DNA of 64,000 nucleotides from Gemmatimonadaceae bacterium (GTDB lineage: Bacteria; Gemmatimonadota; Gemmatimonadetes; Gemmatimonadales; Gemmatimonadaceae): assembly GCA_025358925.1 (NCBI GenBank), contig JANYHT010000029.1:1-64000 (forward strand), in the 5' to 3' direction. How positions within the stretch are numbered: the stretch's first letter is position 1; every line of letters starts with the position of its first letter. The notes under the pieces are model-generated. The model was not told the DNA's origin and did not search any database. It saw only the letters and a program-made list of their open reading frames with translations. Made by a program: the position numbers and the translations under genes. Shown here piece by piece: positions 7,786 through 62,514 of the stretch.

Positions 7786-8337
7786 TCAGCGCGCTCCACG
7801 AAATACGCCACTCAGGGCACCCCGAAGTTGCGCCGCGATCAGAAAGACAACAGCGCCGAACACCAGCGCGAACTTGATGGTTGCAGCGATGCCCGCAATG
7901 CGAGTCGAGCTGCTACTCGCGCCCACATCCAACATGCGCAGCAGCGCCAGATTCTCGGTGGCATCCAGCGGAATGCAAGCAAACACTGCGTACGAAAGTT
8001 GTTGACCGACGCGATCAAACCATCCGGCATTGCGTCGCGCCAGCATGCGACAACCGAGTCCCAAGCTGACGGGATACAACGCCAAGAACGCAAAGTCGAG
8101 GTGCAAACTTTCACGCGCCGATGCAAGCGCACCGTTTTCCGTCCACGCGTGCAACATCGCCGCCGCACGCTCGCGCGTGAACGCGAGTTCGAAGCCCACA
8201 ATACCTGCGGGCGTACTCGGCGATTTTAAAAACCCATCAATGTGTCGGAGTTTCACCATGAGAATCAGCGACGCGATCGATGCGACGAGCCATAGGACTA
8301 CCAGTGCTGGCCGTACCGGCGTGCTCGAGACGCTCAA
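7786..8337 (-). CDS. Small integral membrane protein, unknown function
   Basis: A 183-residue protein with several likely membrane segments: PALVVLWLVASIASLILMV near the N-terminus, a middle segment FLALYPVSLGLGC, then LSYAVFACIPL, and the C-terminal FALVFGAVVFLIAAQL. The TTG start at 8337 is chosen because it overlaps the transketolase stop (TTGA), giving translational coupling. Longer starts would lie wholly inside transketolase. No family was recognised. The pairing with transketolase may be accidental. Confidence 0.6.
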   Translation of the reverse strand: MSVSSTPVRPALVVLWLVASIASLILMVKLRHIDGFLKSPSTPAGIVGFELAFTRERAAAMLHAWTENGALASARESLHLDFAFLALYPVSLGLGCRMLARRNAGWFDRVGQQLSYAVFACIPLDATENLALLRMLDVGASSSSTRIAGIAATIKFALVFGAVVFLIAAQLRGALSGVFRGAR

Positions 8338-10358
8338 CTGCCGAGCAAGCCGACCGCAACTTCGACGACATGCTCCGCGGTGATGCCGTACTCCGTGTAT
8401 AGCGTTTGATACGGCGCACTCGCGCCAAACTTCTCGATGCCGACCACTGCACCGCGGTCTCCGACCCAGCGATACCACGACATCGGATGTGCCGCTTCAA
8501 CGGCAACCTTCGCGACACCCGCAGGCAACAAGAAGTCGCGATACTCGGCACTTTGCGCCGCGAAGAGTTCGAGCGACGGACAGCTGACGACACGTGCCGA
8601 GATACCGCGCACCGCGAGATGGCCGCGAGCCGCGAGTGCGATCTCCACTTCAGAGCCCGATGCCATCAACACGACATCTGGTACACCGCTGGTTCCATCG
8701 GCAAGCATATACGCGCCGCGTGCAACGCCAACTTTCACGCGCTCGGTCTCGTTAAAGTACGAAAGTTTTTGGCGCGTCAGCACAAGCGCAACGGGACCAG
8801 TGTTGTGATGCAGCGCGACCCGCCACGCCTCCGCCACTTCATCGGCATCGGCCGGACGCAACACCACAAGATTTGGAATGCATCGCAACGCCGTGAGCTG
8901 CTCCACCGGTTGATGCGTTGGCCCGTCTTCACCCAATCCGATCGAATCGTGCGTGAACACGTAAATGACATGCACTCCCATCAGTGCAGCGAGACGAATA
9001 GCTGGGCGCATATAGTCGGCGAACACGAGGAACGTGCCACCGTACGGCACAATGCCCCCATGCAACGCCATGCCGTTCATAATTGCGCCCATGCCGTGCT
9101 CACGAATCCCAAAACGAAAGTCACGACCACCCGGTGAGACCGCCGTAAACATCTCGGCACCTTTCACGTTGGTCAAATTTGACGGGGTGAGGTCTGCCGA
9201 ACCGCCAACCAATTCGGGCATGAACGGTGCGATCGCATTGAGTACGACACCGGAGGCGGCACGCGTCGCAACGTTACCACTCTTCGCGTCGAACGATGGA
9301 AACGCGGTACTCACACCGACATGTAATTCGCCACGTAATCGACGCTGCAATTCTGTGGCGAGTTCGGGATGCGCGGCCGTGTACGCGATCCATCGCGTAT
9401 TCCAATCGGCATGCGACATAGCGCGCTCTGCTACTCCTTCGCGCCAGTGCGCCAACGCCTCGTCGGGCACATGAAACGCATCCGGATATTCCCATCCGTA
9501 TACTGCTTTGGTGAGCGCGACCTCTTCGACGCCAAGTGGCTCGCCGTGTGCTTTGGAAGTGTCTTGCTTGTGCGGTGATCCAAATCCAATGTGCGTGCGC
9601 GTGATGATGAGTGTGGGACGCGTGGCGTCGGCTTTTGCTTCGGCGATGGCATCATCAATCGCGTCAAGGTCATTCACATCGCCGATGTGCAACACCTGCC
9701 AACCGTACGCACCAAAGCGCGCCGCGGCGTCATCGCTACAGCTGAGGCTCGTGCTACCGTCAATGGTGATGTGATTGTCGTCGAAAAAGCCAATCAACTT
9801 GCCCAGCTTGTGATGTCCGGCGTAGCTCGCGGCCTCGTGCGAGATGCCTTCCATCAAGTCGCCATCACCCGCGATAAAGTATGTGTAGTGATTGACGATG
9901 TGATGTGCGTCGCGATTGAATTCAGCGGACAAATGTGCTTCGGCAACGGCAAATCCAACGGCGTTCGCTAGGCCCTGTCCCAATGGACCCGTGGTGGTTT
10001 CGACACCCGGCGTGTGATGCACCTCGGGATGCCCAGGTGTCATGCTTTTCCATTGACGAAAGAGCTTGAGCTGCTCGAGCGGCAACGCATACCCCGACAT
10101 GAACAATGACCCATACAACACCATCGAGGCATGTCCGACCGAGAGCACGAAACGATCACGATCTGCCCACTGTGGATTGGCCGGATCGTGGCGCAAATGC
10201 CGTGTGTAGAGCGAGTACGCAAGCGGCGCGAGCGCCATCGGCGTACCCGGATGCCCGGACTCGGCTTTTTGTACCGCGTCCATAGCGAGCGTGCGCACCG
10301 TGTTGATGGCGAGCAGCGCGAGATCAGGCGTTGTGGAAACAGAAGGTGCAGCGGACAC
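8334..10358 (-). CDS. tkt: Transketolase
   Basis: A 674-residue cytosolic enzyme that transfers two-carbon ketol units in the non-oxidative pentose phosphate pathway. The thiamine pyrophosphate/Mg motif GDGDLMEG begins near residue 164. Also visible are the conserved AESGHPGTPM (about 32-41), TTTGPLGQGLANAVG, and DSIGLGEDGPTHQPVEQL, which carries the catalytic Glu region. The GTG at 10358 is chosen because GGAG lies five bases upstream and it gives the usual family length. A longer frame upstream has no transketolase features. The stop overlaps the next gene's TTG start. Confidence 0.95.
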   Translation of the reverse strand: MSAAPSVSTTPDLALLAINTVRTLAMDAVQKAESGHPGTPMALAPLAYSLYTRHLRHDPANPQWADRDRFVLSVGHASMVLYGSLFMSGYALPLEQLKLFRQWKSMTPGHPEVHHTPGVETTTGPLGQGLANAVGFAVAEAHLSAEFNRDAHHIVNHYTYFIAGDGDLMEGISHEAASYAGHHKLGKLIGFFDDNHITIDGSTSLSCSDDAAARFGAYGWQVLHIGDVNDLDAIDDAIAEAKADATRPTLIITRTHIGFGSPHKQDTSKAHGEPLGVEEVALTKAVYGWEYPDAFHVPDEALAHWREGVAERAMSHADWNTRWIAYTAAHPELATELQRRLRGELHVGVSTAFPSFDAKSGNVATRAASGVVLNAIAPFMPELVGGSADLTPSNLTNVKGAEMFTAVSPGGRDFRFGIREHGMGAIMNGMALHGGIVPYGGTFLVFADYMRPAIRLAALMGVHVIYVFTHDSIGLGEDGPTHQPVEQLTALRCIPNLVVLRPADADEVAEAWRVALHHNTGPVALVLTRQKLSYFNETERVKVGVARGAYMLADGTSGVPDVVLMASGSEVEIALAARGHLAVRGISARVVSCPSLELFAAQSAEYRDFLLPAGVAKVAVEAAHPMSWYRWVGDRGAVVGIEKFGASAPYQTLYTEYGITAEHVVEVAVGLLGS

Positions 10359-10429
10359 GAAAACTCCGGGGACGTCGGTCGTGAGGGCAGGCGCGCCCGA
10401 ACCGACGGGGTGCCAAAGCCGAAGGAAAG

Positions 10430-10984
10430 TTAGCGCGCGTTCGCGGCGCTGAGGTACAGCGTTTTTGTGAGCGCGAGATGATGCGCAAAATGGCCGGCAA
10501 TGATCCACGTCAGCGCACGCGCTGATAGCGGATTGTTGTTCGACGTTCCGATCTGTGCGAGGCCCGTATCATCGAGCGAGCGGACGAAGGCGATCGTCGA
10601 GGCGCGCACCGCTTCACTCTCGCCGACAATGTCCCACAGCGTGCGCTGACCAGCCCGACTCTCCGGCACCCAATCATTTTGTTCGAAGCCTGGCAGCGGC
10701 GTTTTGTCGCCTCGTGCAATCCACGTCAGTCGATACGAAAATACACGCTCGGTATCGGCGACGTGCAGCAGTGATTCGGCCAACGTCCATTTGCCTGGCG
10801 CGTATGCAAACGACGCGAGACTTGGCTCGATACCAGACAGCAGTGCGCGCAGCTGTGCAGGTTGCTCCTCAAGTACGGCGAGCAGATTGTTATCGCCGCG
10901 CGCCGCCAATAGCTGCTCGGTGGTATTGACGTACAACGACATGTACGGCGAATGCTCTGAGGCATCGGGTTTCGCAAAATGCAT
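10430..10984 (-). CDS. DinB-family metalloprotein
   Basis: A 184-residue four-helix-bundle protein of the DinB superfamily. Evidence is the pattern GKWTLAESLLHVADTERVFSYRL, with a first metal His in LLHVADTE, and a C-terminal GHFAHHLALTKTLYL helix supplying further His ligands. WIARGDKTPLPGFEQ between them is typical of DinB_2 members. Such proteins include putative thiol transferases and damage-inducible proteins. The precise role is unknown. It lies 6 bp after the alanyl-tRNA editing gene, suggesting co-transcription. Confidence 0.8.
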   Translation of the reverse strand: MHFAKPDASEHSPYMSLYVNTTEQLLAARGDNNLLAVLEEQPAQLRALLSGIEPSLASFAYAPGKWTLAESLLHVADTERVFSYRLTWIARGDKTPLPGFEQNDWVPESRAGQRTLWDIVGESEAVRASTIAFVRSLDDTGLAQIGTSNNNPLSARALTWIIAGHFAHHLALTKTLYLSAANAR

Positions 10985-20395: not shown

Positions 20396-20463
20396 AATGC
20401 GACCATACTTCCCCGCGAGCGGGGTCGAAGCTAGCCTACTGGTGTGATGATCGTCCTGCCATC

Positions 20464-22563
20464 ATGACTGATTCGGCGCCCGACGCGCCGCACCTCACCG
20501 CCACACAGCATGGCGTGATGGACGCACTCGCGCGCAGTGTCCTCACGGGTGCACCGGCATCGTCGGAAACCTTCAGCGATCTTATCGCACGATGTGATGC
20601 GCGACTTGGCGCACTGCCACCGCATCGACGTGCGGCGTTTCGCTCCGCACTTACGGTGATGGGCAGCCGTATGGGTGTCCTGCTCGCCATCGGACGCGCC
20701 ACCCCGTTCGCAATGCTGTCAGCAAGCGAACAAGCACGCTGCTTTGCGGCGTGGGGTGAAGCACGCATCCCGCAATTGCGTTCCGCACACCAAGCAGTTC
20801 GTCGTCTTGTGTTGGCCGTGCACTATGCGCGCCCCGAAGTTGCCGCAGCAATTGGCTACGCCGGGCCACTGCATCTGCGTGCACCACAGGTTGCGTGGGA
20901 AGGTCCACTCGCTGGCATTACCAGAGATAGTGAACCTGTCGCGCGTGGCGCGCGCGTGCTACCCAGCGTGATTGCACCGTCGCCGCTGCCGCGCGGCGTT
21001 GTAACCGCGCAATCGATGCATGGCGACATCCATCGACGCGCCGATGCCGCGGTGATTGGCAGCGGCGCTGGCGGCGCGGTCACCGCAGCGCGTCTCGCCG
21101 AAGCGGGGTACGATGTCGTCATCGTGGAAGAAGGTGGGTACTACACCAGCGCCGATTTCAACGAGGAGGAAGCGGCGTTAACTGCGCGACTGTATGCCGA
21201 CGGTGCGATGCGCACGACCGATGATCTCTCGATCGCGCTTGTCCAAGGAAGTACCGTCGGCGGTTCGACAACCGTCAATTGGATGATCATGCTACGCACA
21301 CCACCATATGTGCTCGAGGAATGGGCGCGCGACTATGGCGTGTACGGCATGCAGGCCGCGGACATGGCCCCGGTGTTTGCGTGCATCGAAGCAGACGTAC
21401 ATTCGCGCGTGGTGCCCGACGATGCGCATTCGCCAAACAATCGCATTGTGCTTGACGGTGCGGCGGCGCTTGGCTGGCGTGCGTCGTCAGCGGCGATCAA
21501 CGCGAACGGCTGTTTACGTTGCGGCTTTTGCGGTGTTGGATGTCGTCACAATGCCAAACAATCCGCGCTCGTCACCTACGTACCGCGTGCGCTGGACGCG
21601 GGCGCCACGCTCCACGCAAACGCGCTTGTCGCACGGATAGAAATTCGCGAACGCGACACGGGCGGTACCGGCACTCCACCACTCAAACGCGTGCACGCGA
21701 TTGTGCGCGACGGGCGCGCGAATACCACACCGCGCACACTCACCATTGACGCGCCACTCGTCGTCGTCGCCGGTGGCGCGATCGGAACACCGCTCCTGCT
21801 GCAACGCTCGGGATTTGGCGGCGGCGGCGTTGGTCATTGGCTTCGACTGCATCCCACCACGGCCATTGTCGGTACGTACAATCACGATATTGTCACGAGT
21901 ACCGGCATTCCGCTGACGACGATGTGTGACGAGTTTATTCGTTCCGCTAACAGCGACTATGGTTTTTGGATAGAGTGTCCACCCATGCATCCATCATTCA
22001 CTGCTGCCGCGACTCCCGGCTTCGGTCCCGCGCACGCAGAACAAATGCGCATCGCCAATCAAACCGGTGTGCTCATCGCACTCACCCGCGATGGTGCCAG
22101 CACAGGTCACTCAAGCGGTCGTGTCACCACCGATCGTGCCGGCCGTTCACACATCACATATGCACTCAGTACAGCCGACCAAGCGCGCGTGCGGGCCTCG
22201 ATCACCGCATCGGCACGCATGCACTTGGCCGCAGGGGCGACCGAGGTCAGCACCTTTCACACAACGCCGGTGCGTATTCGTCGCGAAGCAGATCTCGCGC
22301 AATTGGAGACCGCCTCGTTGGCGCCAAATCGTATCGGGCTCTTCTCCGCGCACGTCAATGGCACGTGCCGCATGGGCGTGGACCCACGGATCAGCGGCGC
22401 AACACCGGAGGGCGAGCGTCACGGGGTGCGTGGTCTGTACATTGCAGACGGTTCACTGTTGCCGACCGCATTGGGCGTCAATCCGCAGGAGACCATCATG
22501 GCCGTGAGCTCGGTACTCGCCGACCGCATGGCGACTCGACATTTCGGTATTACGCGAGCGTAG
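20464..22563 (+). CDS. GMC oxidoreductase (long-chain alcohol oxidase-like)
   Basis: A 699-residue FAD enzyme, probably oxidising an alcohol to an aldehyde. A roughly 180-residue N-terminal extension resembles that of fatty alcohol oxidases. The Rossmann motif GSGAGGAVTAARLAEAGYDV then begins the FAD domain. QGSTVGGSTTVNWM is the GMC flavin loop. CLRCGFCGVGC is a Cys-rich segment typical of the long-chain alcohol oxidase branch. The C-terminus has GTCRMGVDP and LYIADGSLLPTALGVNPQET. The ATG at 20464 is preferred because upstream in-frame codons fall in the intergenic repeat. It is the first gene of a six-gene operon. Confidence 0.88.
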   Translation: MTDSAPDAPHLTATQHGVMDALARSVLTGAPASSETFSDLIARCDARLGALPPHRRAAFRSALTVMGSRMGVLLAIGRATPFAMLSASEQARCFAAWGEARIPQLRSAHQAVRRLVLAVHYARPEVAAAIGYAGPLHLRAPQVAWEGPLAGITRDSEPVARGARVLPSVIAPSPLPRGVVTAQSMHGDIHRRADAAVIGSGAGGAVTAARLAEAGYDVVIVEEGGYYTSADFNEEEAALTARLYADGAMRTTDDLSIALVQGSTVGGSTTVNWMIMLRTPPYVLEEWARDYGVYGMQAADMAPVFACIEADVHSRVVPDDAHSPNNRIVLDGAAALGWRASSAAINANGCLRCGFCGVGCRHNAKQSALVTYVPRALDAGATLHANALVARIEIRERDTGGTGTPPLKRVHAIVRDGRANTTPRTLTIDAPLVVVAGGAIGTPLLLQRSGFGGGGVGHWLRLHPTTAIVGTYNHDIVTSTGIPLTTMCDEFIRSANSDYGFWIECPPMHPSFTAAATPGFGPAHAEQMRIANQTGVLIALTRDGASTGHSSGRVTTDRAGRSHITYALSTADQARVRASITASARMHLAAGATEVSTFHTTPVRIRREADLAQLETASLAPNRIGLFSAHVNGTCRMGVDPRISGATPEGERHGVRGLYIADGSLLPTALGVNPQETIMAVSSVLADRMATRHFGITRA

Positions 22564-22576
22564 GTCTGGAGACACG

Positions 22577-23146
22577 ATGAGCGGGAAGGGTGATAAAAAG
22601 CGACGTCGCGCACTCGATGCATACAGTCGACTACAACGGGCTGCTGCGCTGTCCGCCGCGCGTGTTGAACATGCCGTACATCCCTTTGGTCTTTCCGCGT
22701 CGCAGTTTGGCGTGCTCGACACCTTAGCCACGCGCGGCTCGGTGCATCAGCAGGAACTAGCCGAAGCACTTGGTCGCAGCAAAGCGCAAATGACGGCGAT
22801 TATCGATGCACTCGAAGCGCGCACGTTGGTGCGTCGGGAACGACATGCGACCGATCGTCGATTCATCACCATCCATCTCACGTCGGCTGGTCGCGATCTA
22901 CTCACGGACGCGACGCCCGTGCGATCGGCCGCGATTGTCACGCTCATGTCGGAACTGAGCGGCGATCAACGCGCACGTCTCGCGCGTTTGTGTCGACGAT
23001 TGCTGCGAGTTCTCGATCCGAAAAATGACGAGCAAGACACCGATGATGCGGACGAACCTGAGGCACACGCGGCGACCTCAGTAGTAATCGTACCAGCAAC
23101 GATCATCACGCCCTCCACCGAACTTCCTTCACCTTCGACGATTTGA
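22577..23146 (+). CDS. MarR-family transcriptional regulator
   Basis: A 189-residue winged-helix DNA-binding protein. The helix-turn-helix lies in LATRGSVHQQELAEALGRSK. The wing follows in LVRRERHATDRRFITIHLTS. The first 40 residues form the usual dimerisation helix. A Glu/Asp/Thr-rich tail of about 40 residues is longer than usual. The start is supported by GGAG a few bases upstream. Lying 13 bp after the GMC gene and 2 bp before the aminotransferase, it probably controls this operon in response to a small ligand. Confidence 0.9.
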   Translation: MSGKGDKKRRRALDAYSRLQRAAALSAARVEHAVHPFGLSASQFGVLDTLATRGSVHQQELAEALGRSKAQMTAIIDALEARTLVRRERHATDRRFITIHLTSAGRDLLTDATPVRSAAIVTLMSELSGDQRARLARLCRRLLRVLDPKNDEQDTDDADEPEAHAATSVVIVPATIITPSTELPSPSTI

Positions 23147-23148
23147 TC

Positions 23149-24312
23149 ATGGCCGGACGGCACTTCCTGCAGATTCCGGGGCCAACCCCCGTACCTGATC
23201 GCCTGCTGCGCGCCATGAACCGCCAGCAAGAAGACCATCGTTCCTCCGCCTTTCCGGCACTCACGCGATCAATCCTCTCGCGATTGCCGCACATCATCAA
23301 TCAGACAAACGGCCAGTGTTTCGTGTTCCCCGCTTCGGGTTCGGCCATGTGGGAAGCATCATTGGTCAACACGCTCGACCCCGGCGCGCGACTGTTGGCC
23401 ATACGGTTTGGACAATTCTCACATCTGTACATCCAAACGGCGCGCGCACTTGGGTTCTCGGTTGACGTAATTGAAGTGCCATGGGGTGAAGCGGCACCCA
23501 CGGACACAATTGAAGCGGCATTGCGTGCGGACTCAGGGCACGCATATCAGGGATTGCTGCTCGTGCATAACGAAACCGCGACCGGCGTGACGAATGATGT
23601 TGGTGCAGTACGTGCGGCGATGGATCGAGCGCAACATCCCGCGCTGCTGTACGTGGACGGCGTCAGCTCAATCGCAAGTCTTGAGTTCCAGTTCGATGAG
23701 TGGGGCGTTGACCTCGCCATTACTGGTTCGCAAAAAGGATTTATGCTGCCGGGTGGTCTTGGAATCTTAGCCGTAAGCGCGAAAGCGATGGCGCGTATCG
23801 CAAACGCAAAATCATCACGCTCCTATTTTGATCTTCGTCCGATGCGCGATCAAAACGAGCGCGGATATTTTCCATCAACGCCCGCCATTTCACTGCTGTT
23901 TGGCCTCGACGAATCGCTCACGATGTTGCTTGAAGAAGGGATGTCGGCGGTCGCAGCGCGCCATCGGCGACTCGCCATTGGCGTGCGCGCAGCGGTAGCG
24001 AAGTGGGGACTCGCGCAGTGTGCGCGTCGTCCGGAAATTGCGTCAAATACGCTCACCGCGGTGATCGTGCCCGAGGGCATCGACTCGGCACACATCGTCG
24101 ATATCGCTTTTCGCCGGTACGACATTTCTCTCGGCGCCGGACTCGGCGAAGTCGCTGGCAAAGTTTTTCGCATCGGGCATTTGGGCGACACCAACGCGCT
24201 CACGCTTGCTGGCGCGCTAGCGGGTGTCGAGATGGCGCTGCTCGATGCCGGCGTGCCACTGACATTGGGTGAAGGTGTTGGTGCAGCACTCGCCCATTGG
24301 CGCGTCGCGTGA
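23149..24312 (+). CDS. Serine-glyoxylate / alanine-glyoxylate type aminotransferase
   Basis: A 387-residue PLP enzyme of class V (AGXT/SgaA type). It probably converts serine plus glyoxylate to hydroxypyruvate plus glycine. The start HFLQIPGPTPVPDRLLRAM and RSSAF are typical. The PLP lysine lies in AITGSQKGFMLPGGLG. VDGVSSIASLEFQFDEWGVD holds the cofactor aspartate region. RIGHLGDTNALTLAGALAGV is the C-terminal family signature. The ATG at 23149 is used rather than a TTG two codons upstream. The next gene is a hydroxypyruvate/glyoxylate reductase overlapping by 4 bp, which supports this substrate choice. Confidence 0.9.
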   Translation: MAGRHFLQIPGPTPVPDRLLRAMNRQQEDHRSSAFPALTRSILSRLPHIINQTNGQCFVFPASGSAMWEASLVNTLDPGARLLAIRFGQFSHLYIQTARALGFSVDVIEVPWGEAAPTDTIEAALRADSGHAYQGLLLVHNETATGVTNDVGAVRAAMDRAQHPALLYVDGVSSIASLEFQFDEWGVDLAITGSQKGFMLPGGLGILAVSAKAMARIANAKSSRSYFDLRPMRDQNERGYFPSTPAISLLFGLDESLTMLLEEGMSAVAARHRRLAIGVRAAVAKWGLAQCARRPEIASNTLTAVIVPEGIDSAHIVDIAFRRYDISLGAGLGEVAGKVFRIGHLGDTNALTLAGALAGVEMALLDAGVPLTLGEGVGAALAHWRVA

Positions 24313-25307
24313 GTGCCTCGTCAGAACGTCCCATTGTATTCGTCACGCGGAAGTTGCCCGCGAGCATCGAAACAGAAGTTGTGGCGCACTACGACGCGCG
24401 ACTGAATCGCACGGATGACGCGCTGGCGCCTGAGCAACTCACCGCCGCACTGCGTCAAGCGGATATCATTTTTTGCACTGTCACCGACAACATTCGCGTC
24501 GAACAGTTGGGCGGGAGCGGTATTCGCACGAAACTCATTGCGAATTTTGGCGTTGGCGTGAATCACATCGATCTCGATGCGGCGAAGCGCGCCGGCATCA
24601 CGGTGACGAACACGCCTGATGTGCTCACGGAAGACACGGCAGACCTCGCCATTGGGTTGATGCTGATGATTATGCGGCGCATGGGCGAGGGAGAACGACA
24701 CGTGCGGACTGGCGCGTGGTCGGGATGGCGGCCGACGCATATGGTGGGTCGCAGTCCGCGCGGGAAGACGTTAGGCGTGATTGGCTACGGACGTATCGGA
24801 CGCGCCGTGGCGCGTCACGCGGCAGCCGCGTTCGGCATGCACGTACTCTGGTACGCACCGCGCGATCCACGCATTGAAGATGCCGCCTCCGCGGGACCAA
24901 CGAACGCACAACGTGCCACGTCGCTGGACGAGCTCCTGCAACGCGCGGACGTTGTCTCGCTGCACTGCCCATCCACGGCGGACACGAAGCACCTGATCAA
25001 CGCGGATCGCCTCCGCATGATGAAAGACAGCGCGTATCTCATCAACACCGCGCGCGGTGACATTGTCGATGAGTGGGCGTTGTCCAGCGCACTACGCGAG
25101 CAAGTCATCGCCGGTGCGGGACTCGACGTCTATGAGTTTGAACCGTCGGTGGTCGCCGATTTGAAAGAAATGGAAAACGTGGTGTTGTTACCGCATTTGG
25201 GCAGCGCCACGATGGAAACACGCACGGCGATGGGCGAACGCGCACTGAAAAACATCGCAGCATTCGTCGCTGGTGACGTCCCGCCGGATGTTGTCGTCCG
25301 ACCATAA
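24309..25307 (+). CDS. Hydroxypyruvate/glyoxylate reductase (D-2-hydroxyacid dehydrogenase)
   Basis: A 332-residue NAD(P)H-dependent enzyme, probably reducing hydroxypyruvate to D-glycerate or glyoxylate to glycolate. The substrate loop is ANFGVGVNHIDLDAAKRAGI with NTPDVLTEDTADLAIGLML. The nucleotide motif is LGVIGYGRIGRAVARHAAA. The catalytic Arg lies in INTARGDIVDEWAL, Glu in the YEFEPSV region, and His in LLPHLGSATMETR. The GTG start overlaps the aminotransferase stop, implying coupled translation and consecutive reactions. Confidence 0.9.
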   Translation: MSASSERPIVFVTRKLPASIETEVVAHYDARLNRTDDALAPEQLTAALRQADIIFCTVTDNIRVEQLGGSGIRTKLIANFGVGVNHIDLDAAKRAGITVTNTPDVLTEDTADLAIGLMLMIMRRMGEGERHVRTGAWSGWRPTHMVGRSPRGKTLGVIGYGRIGRAVARHAAAAFGMHVLWYAPRDPRIEDAASAGPTNAQRATSLDELLQRADVVSLHCPSTADTKHLINADRLRMMKDSAYLINTARGDIVDEWALSSALREQVIAGAGLDVYEFEPSVVADLKEMENVVLLPHLGSATMETRTAMGERALKNIAAFVAGDVPPDVVVRP

Positions 25308-26139
25308 CATCGTGCACGGTACGCAACTTCCGGACAACGCGTTGAGCGCGCCGCTCGCACCGCAACACGTCGGATCGCTCGAGCACTATCGTCAAGTACG
25401 GTCGCGCTTTTTGTCGCATGACCACGACCTTGTCGTGTGCCTCCCGCCGGAATATCACACCGAGCCGCAGCGCAGTTACCCCGTGCTCTACTTGCATGAC
25501 GGGCAAAACGTGTTTGACGATTTGCCGATGTCGCCGTTTGGCGTGCAGTGGGGCGTCGATACCACCGCGCGCGCCTTAATGCACGCTGGTGTCATCGAGC
25601 CGGTGATTCTCGTGGCGATCGGCAACGCCGGACGCGACCGCATTGACGAGTACACACCGACGCGCGATTCGTCGCATGACGCCGGTGGTTTGGCTGATCA
25701 ATACGGGCAAATGCTGGTGTACGAAATTAAGCCGTTTATAGATCGTACGTATCGCACGCGACGCAGTGCGCGCGACACGGGACTTGCCGGCAGTTCGCTT
25801 GGCGGACTGCTTACGTTGTACCTCGGGCTGACGCACCCAATGGTTTTTGGCAAGCTTGCCCTGCTTTCGCCATCGGTGTGGTGGGATGATCGATGGATTG
25901 TGCGACAGCTGAGCGCTGACCCTGCACGGCGCTCCGCATTAAAAATTTGGCTAGATGTGGGCACCGGCGAAAAACGAATGCTCAAAGGCACGCAACTGTT
26001 GTATCGCATGCTTGTGCGCAAAGGCTGGCAACCTGGTGTGGATTTGCAGTACATGGAGGCGGATGGCGCGCTGCACGATGAGCGTGCGTGGGGTGAGCGT
26101 ACCGGACTGTTTCTTCGATTTCTTTTTCCAGCGCCATAA
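25288..26139 (+). CDS. Esterase of the Fes/enterochelin esterase-like (PF00756) family
   Basis: A 283-residue alpha/beta hydrolase without signal peptide. The segments VCLPPEYHTEPQRSYPVLYL, then HDGQNVFDD, are typical of this family. The nucleophile Ser is in GLAGSSLGGLLTLYLG. LSPSVWWDDRW follows. A C-terminal GALHDERAW supplies the likely catalytic His. The start is uncertain: ATG 25288 or GTG 25312, both overlapping or abutting the reductase gene. The natural substrate is unknown. Its place in the C2/C3 operon suggests it may release an ester-bound acid, which is inference. Confidence 0.8.
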   Translation: MLSSDHNIVHGTQLPDNALSAPLAPQHVGSLEHYRQVRSRFLSHDHDLVVCLPPEYHTEPQRSYPVLYLHDGQNVFDDLPMSPFGVQWGVDTTARALMHAGVIEPVILVAIGNAGRDRIDEYTPTRDSSHDAGGLADQYGQMLVYEIKPFIDRTYRTRRSARDTGLAGSSLGGLLTLYLGLTHPMVFGKLALLSPSVWWDDRWIVRQLSADPARRSALKIWLDVGTGEKRMLKGTQLLYRMLVRKGWQPGVDLQYMEADGALHDERAWGERTGLFLRFLFPAP

Positions 26140-26141
26140 GC

Positions 26142-26861
26142 ATGGACAGTTTTCGCGGATTTTCGCCGAAGGCGATGACCTTCTTGCGCGGGTTATCCAA
26201 AAACAATCGCAAGGAATGGTTTGAGGAGCATCGCAGCGACTACGAGCAGCAGCTCAAGCTGCCGTTGCAATCGCTCATTGAAGAAGTTGATGTGCATCTG
26301 GCCCGCATCGCGCCGGAAATCATCGGGTCACCAAAAAAATCTTCGTTTCGCATTCATCGGGACGTACGATTCTCAAAAGACAAATCGCCATACAAAACCC
26401 ACATCGCCTGTTGGTTCTTTCATCGCGACGCGGGCCATGGTGTTGGTGGAGAAGCGGCGCACGGTGGCGCGGGTTTTTATTTTCACATGGCGCCTGCAGG
26501 ATCGTTTTGTGGTGGCGGCATTTGGATGCCACCGCGCCCAGCGTTGAATAAAATTCGCGAATCACTCGCTGATGATTCGGAAGGGTTCGAAGACATTGTG
26601 CTCAGTCGCGGTTTCAAGAAGCGCTTTGGCGCATTGGATCCGGAAGCAATGCTCACGCGTACACCGCGCGGATTCGATGCCGACCACAAAGCCGCCGCGT
26701 TGTTGCGTTATCAATCATTTACGGCGGGATGCGCAGTAAGCAATGACGAGGTGCAAAGCGCGAAACTATCGTTACTCTTAGCGAAGCACTATGCGGCGAT
26801 GCTACCCATGATACGCTGGCTGAACGCTGCGTTAGGGCTCAAGCCGTCATCCATGCGATAA
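26142..26861 (+). CDS. DUF2461 (TIGR02453) family protein
   Basis: A 239-residue cytosolic protein of a widespread family of unknown function. The N-terminal signature is FSPKAMTFLRGLSKNNRKEW, then FEEHR. The middle has FRIHRDVRFSKDKSPYKTH. GAGFYFHMAPAGSFCGGGIW follows. Length is usual. It starts 2 bp after the esterase stop and ends the operon. The last codons overlap a strong inverted repeat (26837-26871). Confidence 0.85.
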   Translation: MDSFRGFSPKAMTFLRGLSKNNRKEWFEEHRSDYEQQLKLPLQSLIEEVDVHLARIAPEIIGSPKKSSFRIHRDVRFSKDKSPYKTHIACWFFHRDAGHGVGGEAAHGGAGFYFHMAPAGSFCGGGIWMPPRPALNKIRESLADDSEGFEDIVLSRGFKKRFGALDPEAMLTRTPRGFDADHKAAALLRYQSFTAGCAVSNDEVQSAKLSLLLAKHYAAMLPMIRWLNAALGLKPSSMR

Positions 26862-50180: not shown

Positions 50181-50225
50181 TCTGTTGGGCAACCGCGTTT
50201 GTTTTCCTTTCGCCGGAGCTGTCGC

Positions 50226-51377
50226 ATGTCCCTGAATCGTCGCTCGTTTCTCAAATCATCTGCGTTGCTGGGCGGTGCGATCGGGTTTGGTGGTTTACCG
50301 TCGCTCGCGCACGGATTTACTGCGGACGGTATCGATCACTGCGCACGTAACACTGTGCCCACACCGTTGCGCATTCTGATTCTTGGCGGCACCGGGTTTA
50401 TCGGTCCGTATCAAGTGCAGTATGCGCTCGACCGGGGTCACTCCGTGACGCTGTTCAATCGCGGTCAAACCAACTCCTCGCTCTTCCCCAACGTCCCGCG
50501 CTTGATTGGCGATCGCAATCTCCCTGACGGTCACAAGGCGTTGGAGAGTGGCACGTGGGATGTCGTGATTGACAACCCGACCGCGAATCCAAAGTGGGTG
50601 CGCGACGCTGGCAAAGCACTGAAGGGTCGCACCAAACACTACATCTTTGTCTCAACGATCTCGGTATTTTCTACGCTTTCAAAACCGTTTGATGAAAACG
50701 GTCCGCTCAACACACCGGTGGATATCGACGCGCCGTTTGATGTCGCGAAGTATGGCGCGAACAAAGTGCGCAGTGAAATCGAAGCAAAGACGCAATTTGG
50801 GAGTGCGCTCACGATTGTCCGCCCCGGCTTGATTGTCGGTCCGGGAGATTTGTCAGATCGATTTTCGTACTGGCCCGTGCGCATCGATAAGGGCGGAGAA
50901 ATTCTGGCGCCGGGTACACCGAGTGATCCGGTGCAATATGTTGATGCGCATGATCTGAGCGAATGGATCGTGCGACTCGCGGAGCAGCGGACGTTTGGCA
51001 CATTCAACGCGACGGGCCCAAAAACGCCGACTAATATTGCTGAGCTTCTGTATGGCATTAAAGCGGTAACGACGAGTGACGCAAAGTTTATTTGGGTGCC
51101 TGCCGATTTTCTTGCAGAGAAGAAAGTGCGGGCGTGGAGTGAGATGCCGGTGTGGGTGCCGTCCACGGGCGACACGGCCGGTTTCGCTCGCGTGATTTGC
51201 ACGAAAGCTTACGCAGCGGGGCTAACATTTCGTCCGCTCGCCGATACCGCGAAAGACACACTCACGTGGTATCACGGACGACCCGCTGCCGAACAAGAAA
51301 AGGCACGTGCTGGATTGGCCACTGAGAAGGAAGTGGCGGTGTTAGCGGCGTGGAAATCGAAGCAGGGAGCGCTATGA
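50226..51377 (+). CDS. NAD-dependent epimerase/dehydratase-like protein, Tat-exported
   Basis: A 383-residue protein. A twin-arginine signal (NRRSFLKSSALLGGAIGFGG) precedes an extended SDR domain with ILILGGTGFIGPYQV and VTLFNRGQTNSSLFPNV. The region VSTISVF ... YGANKVRSE replaces the classic YxxxK with YGANK. IVRPGLIVGPGDLSDRFSYW is conserved. Export of an NAD-binding enzyme requires folding with cofactor before translocation, consistent with Tat. Its paralogue follows immediately and overlaps by 4 bp. Confidence 0.85.
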   Translation: MSLNRRSFLKSSALLGGAIGFGGLPSLAHGFTADGIDHCARNTVPTPLRILILGGTGFIGPYQVQYALDRGHSVTLFNRGQTNSSLFPNVPRLIGDRNLPDGHKALESGTWDVVIDNPTANPKWVRDAGKALKGRTKHYIFVSTISVFSTLSKPFDENGPLNTPVDIDAPFDVAKYGANKVRSEIEAKTQFGSALTIVRPGLIVGPGDLSDRFSYWPVRIDKGGEILAPGTPSDPVQYVDAHDLSEWIVRLAEQRTFGTFNATGPKTPTNIAELLYGIKAVTTSDAKFIWVPADFLAEKKVRAWSEMPVWVPSTGDTAGFARVICTKAYAAGLTFRPLADTAKDTLTWYHGRPAAEQEKARAGLATEKEVAVLAAWKSKQGAL

Positions 51378-52426
51378 ACACGCCACAGAACGCGTCACAT
51401 GCAACCATAGCGCCACTGCGAATTTTGATTCTTGGCGGTACCGGATTCATTGGACCGCATCAAGTGGAGTACGCAATTGCGCGTGGACATACGGTCACCT
51501 TGTTCAATCGCGGGCAAACAAATCCAGGATTGTTTCCGGGCGTTGAGAAGCTGGTTGGTGATCGGAACGCACCCGATGGCTACAAAACATTGGCTGGACG
51601 CACGTGGGATGTGGTGATCGACAATCCGACACAAATTCCGCGGTGGGTGCGCGAGGCTGGCGCTGCACTGAAAGACAGTGTGTCACGCTACGTGTTTGTC
51701 AGCACGCTCTCGGCGTTCAAGAATCGTGCAGCAGTTGGCATCACCGAAGATGGACCGCTTAATGATCCGGCGCTGGCAGATGCGACACCACCAACGTCAA
51801 CGTATGGCCAACTGAAGGTGCGCTGTGAGATGGATGCGCGCGCAATCTTTGGTGACCGCGCGTTGATTGTGCGACCGGGGCTCATCGTCGGTCCGGGTGA
51901 TTTGTCGGATCGATTTTCGTATTGGCCCGTGCGTATTGAGCAAGGAGGTGAAGTGCTTGCGCCCGGTACACCGGACGATCCCGTTGCGTTTATCGACGCG
52001 CGTGATCTCACCGAATGGATGATTCGTTTGTGTGAGCAGCAGGCCAGCGGCACGTACAATGCTGTTGGTCCGCGCTATGGTCTTACCGTGGCGCAGATGT
52101 TGTACGGTATCAAGGCCGTCACCACGAGCAGTGCGACATTCACGTGGGTTGACGCGGATTTTTTGCTCGCGCGAAAACTTCGCCCGTACACGGAGTTACC
52201 CGTGTGGATGCCACCGCGTGGTGATAGCGCGGGATGGGCGCGCATGAATGTGTCGAAAGCGCTTGCGGCGGGACTCACGTTTCGACCGCTCGCGGAAACG
52301 GCGCGTGATACGCTCACATACTACCACGCGGAATCACCCGAACGTCAGGCCACGTTGAAGGCCGGATTGCCGCCCGAGAAAGAACGCGAGGCGTTGACCG
52401 CATGGCACGCCGCAGGACACGAATAG
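51374..52426 (+). CDS. NAD-dependent epimerase/dehydratase-like protein, cytosolic paralogue
   Basis: A 350-residue protein closely related to the preceding one over its whole length (both carry ILILGGTGFIGP, TLFNRGQTN and IVRPGLIVGPGDLSDRFSYW) but without any signal peptide. The active-site segment is VSTLSAF ... YGQLKVRCE, giving YxxxK. The ATG overlaps the upstream stop as ATGA. The pair clearly arose by tandem duplication. The substrate is probably a sugar derivative but is not identified. Confidence 0.85.
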   Translation: MNTPQNASHATIAPLRILILGGTGFIGPHQVEYAIARGHTVTLFNRGQTNPGLFPGVEKLVGDRNAPDGYKTLAGRTWDVVIDNPTQIPRWVREAGAALKDSVSRYVFVSTLSAFKNRAAVGITEDGPLNDPALADATPPTSTYGQLKVRCEMDARAIFGDRALIVRPGLIVGPGDLSDRFSYWPVRIEQGGEVLAPGTPDDPVAFIDARDLTEWMIRLCEQQASGTYNAVGPRYGLTVAQMLYGIKAVTTSSATFTWVDADFLLARKLRPYTELPVWMPPRGDSAGWARMNVSKALAAGLTFRPLAETARDTLTYYHAESPERQATLKAGLPPEKEREALTAWHAAGHE

Positions 52427-57841: not shown

Positions 57842-59188
57842 CTACTTGCGATCCTTGAACTGCTCAAACAACGCCGTGTGTTTCGTATCAAGCGGCACGG
57901 GCCTCCCATCAATAAACAAAAACTTCGTGTTGGTTTTTGCTTCGAGCACATCACCGTCGGTGATAACCAAATTTGCCATCTTGCCGGCTTCGATGGTACC
58001 AAGTTTGTCACCGACGCCTAAAATCTGCGCTGGCCACAACGTCACCGACTTGAGCGCATCGTCCTTACTCAAACCAAACGCTGCGGCCATGCCCGCCGTG
58101 TACGGCAAGTTACGCGCTTCCGCACCGGCATCGCCCGACGTAATGGCGAAGCGCACTCCCGCCTTCGCCAAGATGCCCGGCGCACTGTAATTCACGTCGT
58201 AGTTATCGTCTTCGCGGCTCGGCAAGTCCATCACGCTGCTCAACAACACCGGCACGTCATGCTGCTTGAGATACGCCGCGATCTGCCACGCTTCGCGTCC
58301 ACCAACCACAATGGGCTTGAGTTTCATCTCCTCCGCAAACGCCACCGCCTCGCGAATATCCGTTGTGCGATCCGCGATCAACAACACCGGCGATAGTCCG
58401 CGTACAAACGGCACCATCGACGCCAGCACCACATCCTGCCTGGGGCGCGGCAACAGCTTGTCCTTCGCATACGCATCCATCACCTGCGCATACGCCTCGG
58501 CGTCCTTCAACATCGTGCGCAAGGAATCGAGCTGTCGTTGCCGTGTGCGATTCACGTCTTGCGTATTTGCACCACCGGTGGTTGGAGCAAATCCAAAACC
58601 GCGTCCGCCAAAACCAGAGCGTGGCAGTTCGATCACCAATGCAGCGCGCTGCACTACTACCATTTCTGGAGCGGTGGAGCCTGCCAAATTCATGATCGCG
58701 GCTTGCCCCGACATAATGCCGCCCGTTGGACGCGACAGCACATGCGTAATACCAACCACGCGTGTCACACCAACATGCGCACTGTGCGGATTGATACCGA
58801 AAAATGCCTGCGCGTTAGGATTGAAGCTGCCAGTTTCAGACACATCGACGGTTGCGGCCGCTCCCTGGGACACTTCGGACAAACCAAGTGATGTACCGGC
58901 ATCCATCATACCTGGATACACCACCAATCCCTTTCCGTCGATGACATTTGCACCAGCAGGTACGGTGGCGTTGACGCCGAGCGATTGAATCTTTCCATCG
59001 ACGATGACGACGGTGCCGCTCGCAATTTCAGCGCCGCTCACCGGGACGATGCGCGCACCCTTGATGGCATACGTGCCGCGTGCGCCTGGCGGTGGATTGT
59101 ACGAGCCGAGTTGTGCCGAAGCATCAGGCGCTGTGGCGACGAGCAACGCCACGCACAGTGGTGCACACAAAGTGAATGCGCGAGACAT
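57842..59188 (-). CDS. Secreted amidohydrolase-like protein lacking the HxH metal motif
   Basis: A 448-residue exported protein (signal RAFTLCAPLCVALLVATAPD-ASAQ). The amidohydrolase N-terminal sandwich domain is clear: KGARIVPVSGAEIASGTVVI, DGKIQSLG, DGKGLVVYPGMMD. After PGMMD the family expects HxH, but here AGTSLGL follows. The C-terminal ILGVGDKLGTIEAGKMANLV, then ITDGDVLEAK, is typical. The missing ligands suggest a non-canonical or non-catalytic member. The ATG overlaps the upstream stop (TGATG); it is the last of three coupled genes. Confidence 0.82.
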   Translation of the reverse strand: MSRAFTLCAPLCVALLVATAPDASAQLGSYNPPPGARGTYAIKGARIVPVSGAEIASGTVVIVDGKIQSLGVNATVPAGANVIDGKGLVVYPGMMDAGTSLGLSEVSQGAAATVDVSETGSFNPNAQAFFGINPHSAHVGVTRVVGITHVLSRPTGGIMSGQAAIMNLAGSTAPEMVVVQRAALVIELPRSGFGGRGFGFAPTTGGANTQDVNRTRQRQLDSLRTMLKDAEAYAQVMDAYAKDKLLPRPRQDVVLASMVPFVRGLSPVLLIADRTTDIREAVAFAEEMKLKPIVVGGREAWQIAAYLKQHDVPVLLSSVMDLPSREDDNYDVNYSAPGILAKAGVRFAITSGDAGAEARNLPYTAGMAAAFGLSKDDALKSVTLWPAQILGVGDKLGTIEAGKMANLVITDGDVLEAKTNTKFLFIDGRPVPLDTKHTALFEQFKDRK

Positions 59189-60621
59189 CACGGCTGCATC
59201 TCCGGCAATGGGGTAATGACGCCACGCGCCGGTACAGCGCGCGGTGCTTGATTGGGTTCGGCTTTCTCGAGATCGGCGCGCTCTTTCATCTTGGCGTCGC
59301 GTTGTGCGAGATCTTTCTGGCGATCAAAAAAGAGTTCGCCATCAATGAACGTTTTGTCGACGTTAGCATACACGCTGAGCGGATGCGCACTCCAAATCGC
59401 GATGTCCGCATCTTTCCCCACCTCGATTGAACCCACGCGTTTCTCGACACCCAATTGAATGGCGCCGTTGTACGTGATGGTTTTCAGCGCCTCTTCTTCA
59501 GTCAGACCACCGTACTTCATGAGCTTCGCGGCGTCGATGTTGAGCCGACGCACACGCTCATCACTATCGGAGTTGATCGTCGCGACTACACCGTGCCGCA
59601 TGAGAATGGCCACGTTGTACGGAATAGCATCGTACGCTTCGAGCTTATACGACCAGCTATCGGCAAACGTCGACAGTCCCGCGCCATGCTTTGCAATTTC
59701 CGACGCGATTTTGTACCCCTCAAGTCCGTGCTGCAGCGTCTTTATCTTGAATCCAAAATCGTCAGCCAAGTTGAGCAACATGAGCATCTCGTCCGCGCGA
59801 TAGGAGTGCGCGTGTACAAGGCGCTTACCTTCGAGCACTTCCACCAACGGTTCAAGCTCCAAATCACGACGTGGCGCGAGCAATCCCTTCTCGTTTTTCG
59901 CGACGCGCACTTTGTAATCGTCCCATGACGCCTTGTAGTCACGCGCTCGCGTGAATGCATCGCGCAGCACTTCTTCTTGGCCCATACGAGACGTGGGATA
60001 GCGCTTCGCGACCGCCGGTTGTCCCGGAATGTTGATCGAGTTCTGATTCTTGCGCGTGACATTTTCGCCAAGCGCGAACTTGATGCCTGGCGGTGCACCG
60101 GGGAACATCATTTCATTAACATCTTTGCCAAACTTGAGCTTCACCGTCGCGTTCTGTCCGCCAATGGTATTGGCCGAGCCGTGCAGAATGTTGATGGACG
60201 TGACACCGCCGGCGAGTGCGCGATAGATGTTCACCGCCGTTGGATTGAGCACGTCGTCGATCCGGACCATTGATGTCACCGACAGCGAACCCTCGTTGAT
60301 CGCGTCTGACATCATGTGCGAGTGTGGATCGATGATGCCCGGCATAACGAATTTGCCAGTGGCGTCGACAATCGTTGCGCCTGCCGGTGCCGTAAGATTC
60401 TTGCCGATTTGCGCAATCTTTCCGTTTTGCAGCAGGATATCGGTGTTCTGCATCGTGCCTTTTGTCACCGTCAGCACGGTGGCGTTTTTAATCAGCGTTG
60501 CACCGACAGTGCTCACGCTGGTGGCTGGCGCGGCGCTCGTGCGTTGTGCGCTGGCTGCCGGTGCGATGACGTATGCGGCGGCCAACATGGCGGCGCCAGA
60601 AAATTGGAATACGCGTTTCAT
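59188..60621 (-). CDS. Secreted amidohydrolase (metal motif intact)
   Basis: A 477-residue exported metal-dependent hydrolase (signal FQFSGAAMLAAAYVIAPAAS-AQ). The HxH pair H100/H102 is in PGIIDPHSHMM. Further features are the conserved HAHSYRADEMLMLLNLADDF (metal His), LQHGLEGYK (metal His) and TINSDSDERVRRLN (catalytic Asp region). VGSIEVGKDADIAIWSAHPL follows at the end of the barrel. It resembles imidazolonepropionase/dipeptidase-like amidohydrolases. It is the middle gene of three, 2 bp after the upstream one and overlapping the next. Confidence 0.9.
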   Translation of the reverse strand: MKRVFQFSGAAMLAAAYVIAPAASAQRTSAAPATSVSTVGATLIKNATVLTVTKGTMQNTDILLQNGKIAQIGKNLTAPAGATIVDATGKFVMPGIIDPHSHMMSDAINEGSLSVTSMVRIDDVLNPTAVNIYRALAGGVTSINILHGSANTIGGQNATVKLKFGKDVNEMMFPGAPPGIKFALGENVTRKNQNSINIPGQPAVAKRYPTSRMGQEEVLRDAFTRARDYKASWDDYKVRVAKNEKGLLAPRRDLELEPLVEVLEGKRLVHAHSYRADEMLMLLNLADDFGFKIKTLQHGLEGYKIASEIAKHGAGLSTFADSWSYKLEAYDAIPYNVAILMRHGVVATINSDSDERVRRLNIDAAKLMKYGGLTEEEALKTITYNGAIQLGVEKRVGSIEVGKDADIAIWSAHPLSVYANVDKTFIDGELFFDRQKDLAQRDAKMKERADLEKAEPNQAPRAVPARGVITPLPEMQP

Positions 60622-60623
60622 AA

Positions 60624-62366
60624 TCAGCGTGCTGGCGGAGGTGTACGCGGACGACCAGCAGCGCCATCACGCGCGGGTCGAGTACCGGAAAAAATGCCGG
60701 GTGCATGACCGACAATGGTGAGTCGACCGCGCACCGCGTTGCCGTCAAACGACCCAACAAAGGTGGCTTCTTCCGTGCCTTCTTTGATGGTGACCGATGC
60801 CGAAAATCGAAACGTGCCATCGGCGCCAACAGAACCGTTGTTGATCTCGGCCGAACCCAACATGCCTTGTATCGATCCCAACAAACGTGTGCCCTCTTGT
60901 CGCGCGGACAGGGTGACAGTGCGATCTGTTGCGTCGAGATTGACGCTCATCGTCCAGGTACCGGTGGCGATGTTCGTCTCTGCTGCGTTGTCAGCCGCGC
61001 CCGATGCGCCTGCGGTTGCCGCACGAACGGCGATGGGCTTTCCATCAATGAACAATTGCGTCACACGACCCGTGCGATCAAACAGATCACCACGCGAAAT
61101 CGTGAGGTTTGCAATTTTGCCAGTCTCGATAGTGCCCAAGCGATCGGCCACGCCTAAAATTTCGGCTGGCTGCACCGTCATGGCGCGCAGCGCTTGATCC
61201 GCTGTGAGTCCGTTTTCCATCGCCCGTCGCACATTGGCCATCACGTCGGTCCAATTGCTGATACCACCTGACTGCAACGCATAGCGCACGCCGGCCTGCG
61301 ACAATTTGCCTGGACCCTTCGGTGCTTCGACGCGCTCGCGCAGGACGCGAATGGGATCTGGATCCGCATCCGCCGATGGCGCCGACGTACGACGAGGAAA
61401 ATTGGCTGACAACAGCACTGGCACATTGTCCTGCTTGAGCCGCGCCGCGACGAGATAGGCTTCGCTGCCACCAGCAATGATGGGCTTCAGTCCAAACTCC
61501 TTCGCTAAATCGAGCGCGCGTTCAATCTCCCGTTGCGATGATGCGAACATGACGACGGGTTGTTTGCCCGCGATGGCGCTCTGCAGCGCGTCGAGCGACG
61601 GATCGAAATCCGGCCGCTTCATGCCGCGCGGACTCTTTGCATATGCGGCCTGTTCGTCGCGATAGTGCTGCGCATCAAGCAACTCTTGTCGCAGCGCGGC
61701 AAACACACCCATGAGCGAATTCGGAAAGCCACCATTGCGGAGCGGCGTGAAACCAATGTGCTGCGCCACGTTGGCGCGGATCACCATCGCGTTAACATCA
61801 GCGCCCGCAAGATTGATAACGGCCGACGTACCCTGAAAAATGCCGCTGCTCTGCGCCGTCAACGCCGACGTGTACCCTGCGCTCTGTGGACCGCTGAGCG
61901 TTTCTGCATCAGGCTGCAACAGTTCGAGCGCCGTCATCTCCGGTTGTAAGCCGGGCGGATATGCCGAGTTTGCCGCGCCAACGCGCACGCCGGTGGCTGC
62001 TGCAGGCGCACCGCGTCCTCCGCCCGCCCGTGCCGCGGCCGCCGCACCACCGCTCGGCATACCGATTGAACCAAACGCGTCAATGAAACCCGGATACACC
62101 GTGAGGCCGGTGCCGTCGATGATGCGTGCATCACCGGGAATTGTGATCGTCGTCGCACCAACGGCCGCGATGAGACCGTCACGTACGATAATCGTGCCTT
62201 TTTCTATGATCGAGGACGATACCGGCACGATGCGTGCGTTCGTTATCGCATAAGTCGCGGGCACCGCGCGCGGCGAGGACTGCGCGAACACCGGCCAGAG
62301 CAGTGGTGTATACAGATAGAGTCCGACCGCAGTGACAACGCGGACGAGTTGATGCGGCAAAGACAT
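60624..62366 (-). CDS. Secreted amidohydrolase-like protein with C-terminal beta domain, HxH missing
   Basis: A 580-residue exported protein. The ATG at 62366 has GGAG upstream and gives a signal peptide (LVRVVTAVGLYLYTPLLWPV-FAQ). The amidohydrolase start ITNARIVPVSSSIIEKGTII and GTGLTVYPGFID is clear. AFGSIGMP follows where HxH is expected. A Gly/Ala/Arg-rich insert (GGAAAAARAGGGRGAPAAA) comes next. After the usual barrel end (ILGVADRLGTIETGKIANLT), about 130 extra residues form a beta-rich tail (TVTLSARQEGTRLLGSIQGM). It is first in the operon. Confidence 0.82.
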   Translation of the reverse strand: MSLPHQLVRVVTAVGLYLYTPLLWPVFAQSSPRAVPATYAITNARIVPVSSSIIEKGTIIVRDGLIAAVGATTITIPGDARIIDGTGLTVYPGFIDAFGSIGMPSGGAAAAARAGGGRGAPAAATGVRVGAANSAYPPGLQPEMTALELLQPDAETLSGPQSAGYTSALTAQSSGIFQGTSAVINLAGADVNAMVIRANVAQHIGFTPLRNGGFPNSLMGVFAALRQELLDAQHYRDEQAAYAKSPRGMKRPDFDPSLDALQSAIAGKQPVVMFASSQREIERALDLAKEFGLKPIIAGGSEAYLVAARLKQDNVPVLLSANFPRRTSAPSADADPDPIRVLRERVEAPKGPGKLSQAGVRYALQSGGISNWTDVMANVRRAMENGLTADQALRAMTVQPAEILGVADRLGTIETGKIANLTISRGDLFDRTGRVTQLFIDGKPIAVRAATAGASGAADNAAETNIATGTWTMSVNLDATDRTVTLSARQEGTRLLGSIQGMLGSAEINNGSVGADGTFRFSASVTIKEGTEEATFVGSFDGNAVRGRLTIVGHAPGIFSGTRPARDGAAGRPRTPPPAR

Positions 62367-62514
62367 GAGATTCTCCGAAGGGAGCGAACCGACGCACGGC
62401 AGAGTGCGTTGAGTGAAGACGGTACGAGTTTGGTTGTTGCGACGTTGATACGGAAGAGCAGCAACGTCACGGGTTGTCTTGCCACTTCCATCACAGATCC
62501 AATCAGGACATCCC

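Follow-up and report, generated by a model that had tools for sequence, protein, structure and literature searches.

The window analysed in the present study is a stretch of 64,000 nucleotides from a Gemmatimonadaceae bacterium (GenBank assembly GCA_025358925.1, contig JANYHT010000029.1, positions 1 to 64,000). The contig has 255,384 bases, and the genome measures 4.0 Mb and is 96% complete. The subject of this report is a run of six genes, from a GMC flavoprotein gene to a DUF2461 gene, with a serine-glyoxylate aminotransferase (SGAT) and a hydroxypyruvate/glyoxylate reductase (HPR) in its middle:

20464..22563, plus strand: gene for a GMC flavoprotein of 699 amino acids with no signal peptide (Pfam GMC_oxred_N/C)
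22577..23146, plus strand: gene for a MarR-family regulator (Pfam MarR), directly upstream of the aminotransferase gene
23149..24312, plus strand: gene for SGAT (class V; Pfam), with ATG at 23149 and 387 amino acids from that ATG
24309..25307, plus strand: gene for HPR, a D-2-hydroxyacid dehydrogenase (Pfam 2-Hacid_dh/_C), with GTG at 24309
25288..26139, plus strand: gene for a PF00756 esterase-family hydrolase, with ATG at 25288, a G-S-S-L-G nucleophile motif and no signal peptide
26142..26861, plus strand: gene for a DUF2461/TIGR02453 protein (Pfam)

All six proteins score over the Pfam cut-offs, and these starts leave intergenic distances of 13, 2, -4, -20 and 2 bp. The six plus-strand genes, their families and the five spacings named in a preliminary description of this DNA are borne out by the open reading frame coordinates and Pfam.

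Ancestry of the aminotransferase and the reductase

The closest relative of the SGAT in the PDB is 6pk1, 'Serine--glyoxylate aminotransferase' (412 bits), and the closest relatives of the HPR are glyoxylate reductases. The SGAT relatives of five genomes from other genera (G036, G039, G049, G058 and G060) are encoded together with an HpcH-type lyase, the malate thiokinase genes MtkA and MtkB, and an HPR. The gene order outside the clade of the six-gene operon is SGAT-lyase-MtkA-MtkB-HPR-PEPC, mostly with a divergent glycerate 2-kinase; some of the five serine-cycle operons run past a contig end, and PEPC and glycerate 2-kinase were found in most of them, not in all. MtkA is a malate-CoA ligase beta subunit over the NCBIfam cut-off (698.9 versus 604 bits). 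The lyase matched HpcH-family NCBIfam models below cut-off only, and the name malyl-CoA lyase (Mcl) therefore rests on context. Among 80 named loci of related SGATs, Mcl was a neighbour in 27, MtkA in 30, MtkB in 28 and HPR in 29; BhcB, BhcC and BhcD were all nearby in 21, and a GMC gene in two, both gemmatimonad.

The ancestry of the pair was followed in two trees. First, an SGAT tree was built from 54 rows, comprising 40 of the 80 named loci (hand-chosen), 13 other loci and the window. All eight operon rows formed one clade (support 100/99), which joined L120 (100/98) and then G036, a genome of the same family with a serine-cycle operon (99/91), and the other Gemmatimonadota serine-cycle rows joined next (99/99). 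Second, the final HPR tree contained 28 rows, made up of the window and 27 loci, and excluded the fragments L046 and L119, the long L040, the distant paralogues L131 and L180, and also L127, L152 and L111. All ten operon copies formed one clade (100/100) on a long branch (0.7), and the branching order was the same as in the SGAT tree, with G036 next to the operon clade at a support of 81/82 only. Of all the results of the present analysis, this concordance between the two trees and the two gene orders is the strongest. Judged from these sequences, the SGAT-HPR pair is descended from a serine-cycle operon, and this ancestry is established for both enzymes.

The serine cycle module of methylotrophs and other Gemmatimonadota (SGAT-Mcl-MtkAB-HPR) thus shares with the window relatives of SGAT and HPR that were inherited together, and a glycerate 2-kinase is also present in the window genome. 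In contrast, the window locus has no gene for the lyase, the thiokinase or the PEPC of the serine cycle; it has GMC, MarR, esterase and DUF2461 genes, and the cofactor loop of its HPR is changed:

24849..24884, plus strand: cofactor loop WYAPRDPRIEDA of the HPR, in place of the NAD-type Asp and with a 3-residue insertion, from the alignment of HPRs

An Asp at this position is the NAD-type residue of the enzyme family. All six Gemmatimonadota serine-cycle HPRs have Asp-Pro where the second strand of the nucleotide fold ends, whereas Ala-Pro-Arg and three extra residues stand at the same position in the operon copies compared (10/10). In a separate comparison, three g37 copies have Ala/Ser-Pro-Arg. 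The active-site Arg-Gly and His motifs are retained in the operon copies. Because the NAD-type Asp has been lost and Ala-Pro-Arg is present instead, we infer that the HPR has shifted toward NADPH.

One further SGAT relative was observed by eye at L041 (4990-11967, genome G043), where it lies beside TRAP transporter genes and an FAD/Fe-S oxidase; this is possibly a different glyoxylate or hydroxyacid locus.

Distribution of the operon and its looser partners

Among the 29 other genomes of the same genus, 20 carry the six genes in the window order on a single contig, with insertions of 1.4-3.1 kb in three of these loci (G002, G012 and G022). The locus is cut or split by contig ends in five genomes (G001, G007, G009, G023 and G027) and altered in four. 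G020 and G004 have no GMC gene at the locus and no strong GMC match elsewhere in the genome, the locus of G003 is without the esterase gene, and in G011 the esterase gene is inverted and the DUF2461 gene is not at the locus. MarR-SGAT-HPR is present in 29/29 genomes, including those without GMC (some as fragments at contig ends), and GMC in 27/29.

Outside the genus, GMC orthologues at about 49% identity or more were found in other genera and families by searching a phylum sample of 298 genomes, from which 20 loci were hand-picked for their neighbourhoods. The full operon was observed in three of these loci, all from genus g37, and GMC-HPR without SGAT in one (L202, G302, genus g4); the other 16 had none of SGAT, HPR, esterase and DUF2461. 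The operon was also found in three further loci, namely L219 (genus g122) and L220 and L221 (genus g37). The HPR of L220 was matched in two pieces, the GMC of L221 is cut by a contig end, and L220 is identical in sequence to L119, from the metagenome-assembled genome 'Gemmatimonadaceae bacterium Prado130'. The esterase and DUF2461 families were searched in a sample of 118 genomes of the family; both were present in 45 genomes, unlinked in 31 and adjoining in 14, and all 14 belong to genera g1, g37 and g122. Since the distribution is confined to these genera, the six-gene operon appears to have been assembled within one family, as far as sampled. A check of neighbourhood conservation, suggested in the preliminary description, thus succeeded in part: the order is kept in the genus and in two further genera of its family, g37 and g122, but it was not seen outside the family in the phylum sample and the 20 picked loci. 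A plasmid search returned distant GMC proteins only (<=34.5% among the matches listed), and searches of the open-licence PMC literature turned up no paper describing this operon.

MarR-SGAT-HPR is the conserved core of the operon, and GMC, esterase and DUF2461 are looser partners. The esterase and DUF2461 were not accepted as proven pathway enzymes, because their genes lie apart in 31 of the 45 sampled genomes in which both occur.

Among possible regulatory sequences, one weak candidate operator was found:

20411..20424, plus strand: perfect 14-nt inverted repeat CCCCGC-GA-GCGGGG, 40 nt before the GMC start

This palindrome has one mismatch in the closest relative, L050, and did not emerge as a shared motif across the wider genus; shared 8-mers among 23 sequences upstream of GMC revealed no operator. 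A consensus promoter scan gave no promoter-like site upstream of the GMC gene, its sole match in the region falling inside the DUF2461 gene. Terminator-like sites numbered 14 versus 8.1 expected, and two weak plus-strand sites lie inside the putative operon, near 24.1 kb. An Rfam search of 17.5-32.5 kb gave one match, below the gathering score, and a repeat search of 15-45 kb found none. Elsewhere in the window, three consecutive amidohydrolase-like open reading frames in tandem (57842-62702, minus strand) and two adjoining, similar NAD-epimerase-like ones (50199-52426), likely a tandem duplication, were noticed by eye.

The GMC flavoprotein

Three features bear on the GMC enzyme and its surroundings:

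20500..20853, plus strand: N-terminal helical domain of GMC, residues 13-130, a candidate fused Gluconate_2-dh3 (FAD-GDH gamma-like) domain
21511..21543, plus strand: predicted Fe-S site Cys350-x2-Cys353-x2-Cys356-x3-Cys360, from the profile alignment to 6a2u_B and a 30-row alignment
8334-10508, minus strand: transketolase (TIGR00232, 863 bits), 10 kb from GMC

The AlphaFold model of GMC has a pLDDT of 86. A fold search with the catalytic part returned GMC enzymes in general. Cholesterol oxidase came first, Z was about 30 for both fructose dehydrogenase and the alpha subunit of FAD-glucose dehydrogenase, and the spruce alcohol oxidase PaAox1 had a Z of 30.3. The protein presumably also resembles the long-chain alcohol oxidases of plants and yeast, for which PaAox1 was the sole direct comparison, by fold. 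The best solved sequences in a profile search were those of FAD-glucose dehydrogenase alpha (8hdd, 1.4e-26; 6a2u_B, 1.9e-26). In the profile alignment, Cys356 and Cys360 align with Cys218 and Cys222 of 6a2u_B, and Cys350 is spaced like Cys212; according to a passage of PMC6719666, these three residues of FAD-glucose dehydrogenase bind a 3Fe-4S cluster.

The GMC thus shares with the alpha subunits of FAD-glucose and fructose dehydrogenase (6a2u, 7w2j) the fold and the CX5CX3C spacing of the BcGDH 3Fe-4S ligands Cys212/218/222. In contrast to these enzymes, it is a single chain with an N-terminal helical domain and no separate gamma subunit, it has no signal peptide and no multihaem subunit at the locus, and the Gemmatimonas protein has a fourth Cys at position 353. 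Cys350, Cys356 and Cys360 are invariant in 30/30 aligned rows. A Cys occupies position 353 in the window protein and the other rows of the genus, as well as in L119 and three distant homologues, whereas all 20 other-genus orthologues of this set have Ser, Thr or Ala there. Four Cys were found in every same-genus genome with a GMC gene (27/27); in genus g37, L220 has four and L221 three, and L219 of genus g122 has three. More distant Gemmatimonadota homologues have all four cysteines and the same domain layout, and the catalytic pair H630 and N673 is invariant (22/22).

The N-domain is modelled with confidence as helical. Of 24 aligned N-domains, 12 match PF13618 (Gluconate_2-dh3, the FAD-GDH small subunit family), but that of the window protein does not. 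A fold search restricted to the N-domain returned nothing at E <= 0.001, and its list did not include the 6a2u gamma subunit. No hydrophobic or RR segment was found by hydropathy at the N-terminus, where no export signal is visible, and no cytochrome occurs among the scanned neighbours of the locus. The GMC is probably a cytoplasmic alcohol/sugar or polyol dehydrogenase with predicted FAD and Fe-S cofactors. It is not an obvious oxidase of C2/C3 compounds, neither residues nor fold giving evidence of a small-alcohol substrate, and it is a dispensable accessory gene, being absent from two of the 29 same-genus genomes.

Of 17 GMC loci outside the full-operon set, 11 have a same-strand transketolase gene no more than five genes away, directly adjoining GMC in eight of them, and NCBIfam confirms the assignment in three loci scanned, including the window's own. 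This proximity could be explained by vertical synteny within the family. At L202 (4918-10138, genome G302, another genus), the gene order is GMC-HPR-transketolase, without SGAT.

A proposed route from C2 to C3 compounds

Herein, we propose that Gemmatimonas and two related genera retained the SGAT-HPR pair after the lyase and malate thiokinase had been lost, that the pair was rebuilt into an operon with MarR, and that it now might serve C2-to-C3 salvage. We give this reading a probability of about 0.55. Glyoxylate-to-glycerate salvage is the simplest function in view of the genomic context: GlcDEF-like genes in the window genome, the presence of GcvP, a glycerate 2-kinase (PF13660 over cut-off, G000:C25:74492), the absence of isocitrate lyase in 30/30 genomes of the genus, and a malyl-CoA lyase match limited to a weak partial PF03328 hit of 29.5 bits, compared with 120-132 bits for the lyase genes of the five Gemmatimonadota serine-cycle genomes. 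The GlcD-GlcE-GlcF-like operon lies away from the locus (L112, contig C29). At 5004-10682 of L112, the GlcDEF-like genes are followed by genes for an HAD-like protein, which matched no NCBIfam model, and a YgfZ/GcvT-like protein.

The route may be linear. Glycolate would be oxidised to glyoxylate by GlcDEF, encoded elsewhere in the genome, and SGAT would transaminate glyoxylate to glycine with serine as the amino donor, which would thereby become hydroxypyruvate. Serine could be regenerated from glycine via glycine cleavage, presumably with SHMT, HPR, probably with NADPH, would reduce hydroxypyruvate to glycerate, and glycerate 2-kinase would yield 2-phosphoglycerate. C2 carbon would then enter by this path in place of the one through isocitrate lyase, which is missing. 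MarR might sense a pathway metabolite, GMC may be an accessory cytoplasmic flavin/Fe-S alcohol or polyol dehydrogenase, and esterase and DUF2461 may be passengers or accessory genes. The conversions of glyoxylate to glycine and of serine through hydroxypyruvate to glycerate are those of the photorespiratory, or glycolate-glycerate, pathway. The window genome differs in having no RuBisCO-family match (present in 9/29 other same-genus genomes) and an SGAT of bacterial serine-cycle ancestry.

Several results weigh against this proposal. GlcD, GlcE and GlcF all score below the NCBIfam equivalog cut-offs, and glycolate as the substrate is therefore uncertain. The glycerate 2-kinase falls far under the NCBIfam GlyK cut-off (92 of 550 bits). 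Stronger PF03328 matches occur in G009 (130 bits) and G020 (114 bits) of the same genus, so that the loss of the lyase is shown for the window genome and not for the genus. In addition, the long HPR branch (0.7) could reflect a changed substrate instead of the old one. A serine cycle in the window genome was itself rejected, since a convincing malyl-CoA lyase is absent: SGAT and HPR, which the cycle requires, are found by sequence and glycerate 2-kinase is also present, and malate thiokinase was not found among ten proteins scanned at 17.7-27.7 kb, with no genome-wide search, in which SucCD would match.

The preliminary description had seen a six-gene operon with SGAT and HPR in consecutive steps. 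Gene order, trees and neighbourhoods agree with one conserved operon of this kind, which fits the use of C2 compounds such as glyoxylate or glycolate. The description had further suggested that GMC and the esterase could feed a C2/C3 alcohol or ester into the pair, and this is not borne out by the results. As an explanation of the whole operon, it is unlikely that GMC oxidises a C2/C3 alcohol released by the esterase and that SGAT and HPR consume the product, all under MarR. The same-strand operon includes GMC in 27/29 same-genus genomes and in g37 and g122, and HPR and GMC meet outside the operon too, as shown by GMC-HPR-transketolase at L202; HPR and transketolase both act on hydroxypyruvate. 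However, GMC has been lost in G020 and G004 while MarR-SGAT-HPR stay, 16 of the 20 orthologue loci have GMC without SGAT or HPR, a small-alcohol substrate finds no sign in residues or fold, and the esterase and DUF2461 genes usually lie elsewhere in the genome outside g1, g37 and g122 (adjoining in 14/45, unlinked in 31/45). In the window genome, the separate GlcDEF-like glycolate oxidase locus is the likelier source of glyoxylate.

Serine catabolism, in which SGAT would act on serine and glyoxylate or another keto acid and HPR would form glycerate, as overflow or detoxification, also appears improbable. It would employ the same two enzymes at a locus without a serine-cycle lyase or thiokinase gene, and a dedicated SerA-SerB-aminotransferase locus elsewhere (L111) makes serine, but the co-occurring GlcDEF-like genes would be left unused. 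At 4260-9071 of L111 (contig C12 of the same genome), SerA, an FAD-linked oxidase, a SerB-like phosphatase and a class V aminotransferase form one run, a locus for serine biosynthesis that may include a D-2-hydroxyglutarate dehydrogenase.

A more far-reaching idea, which we regard as quite doubtful, is that GMC represents a hitherto undescribed family of single-chain cytoplasmic FAD/Fe-S alcohol dehydrogenases with a change of cluster type within one orthologue group ([3Fe-4S] on three Cys, with Ser, Thr or Ala at position 353, in most genera; [4Fe-4S] on four Cys in Gemmatimonas). Its product would pass through an NADPH-linked SGAT-HPR step to glycerate, with hydroxypyruvate as a node shared with transketolase in related genera, a route undescribed before. 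Membership in the beta-hydroxyaspartate cycle, with the aminotransferase as the aspartate-glyoxylate aminotransferase BhcA, is highly improbable and was rejected, since BhcA is the top NCBIfam model but at 503.9 bits falls under its 650-bit equivalog cut-off, the true loci of that cycle, with BhcB, BhcC and BhcD adjoining, form a separate clade in the SGAT tree (7/7 rows, 100/100), and no BhcB/C/D-type gene occurs among the window neighbours scanned.

Returning to C2-to-C3 salvage, the trees and gene order show that part of a C1 assimilation cycle has been pared back and rearranged, probably to form an operon for C2 salvage, in Gemmatimonadota, a phylum whose carbon metabolism is little known. 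Moreover, a single predicted Fe-S site occurs naturally in both a three-Cys and a four-Cys form within the GMC family, and the two forms would be useful for revealing what sets the cluster type and the use of oxygen versus an electron carrier in GMC enzymes.

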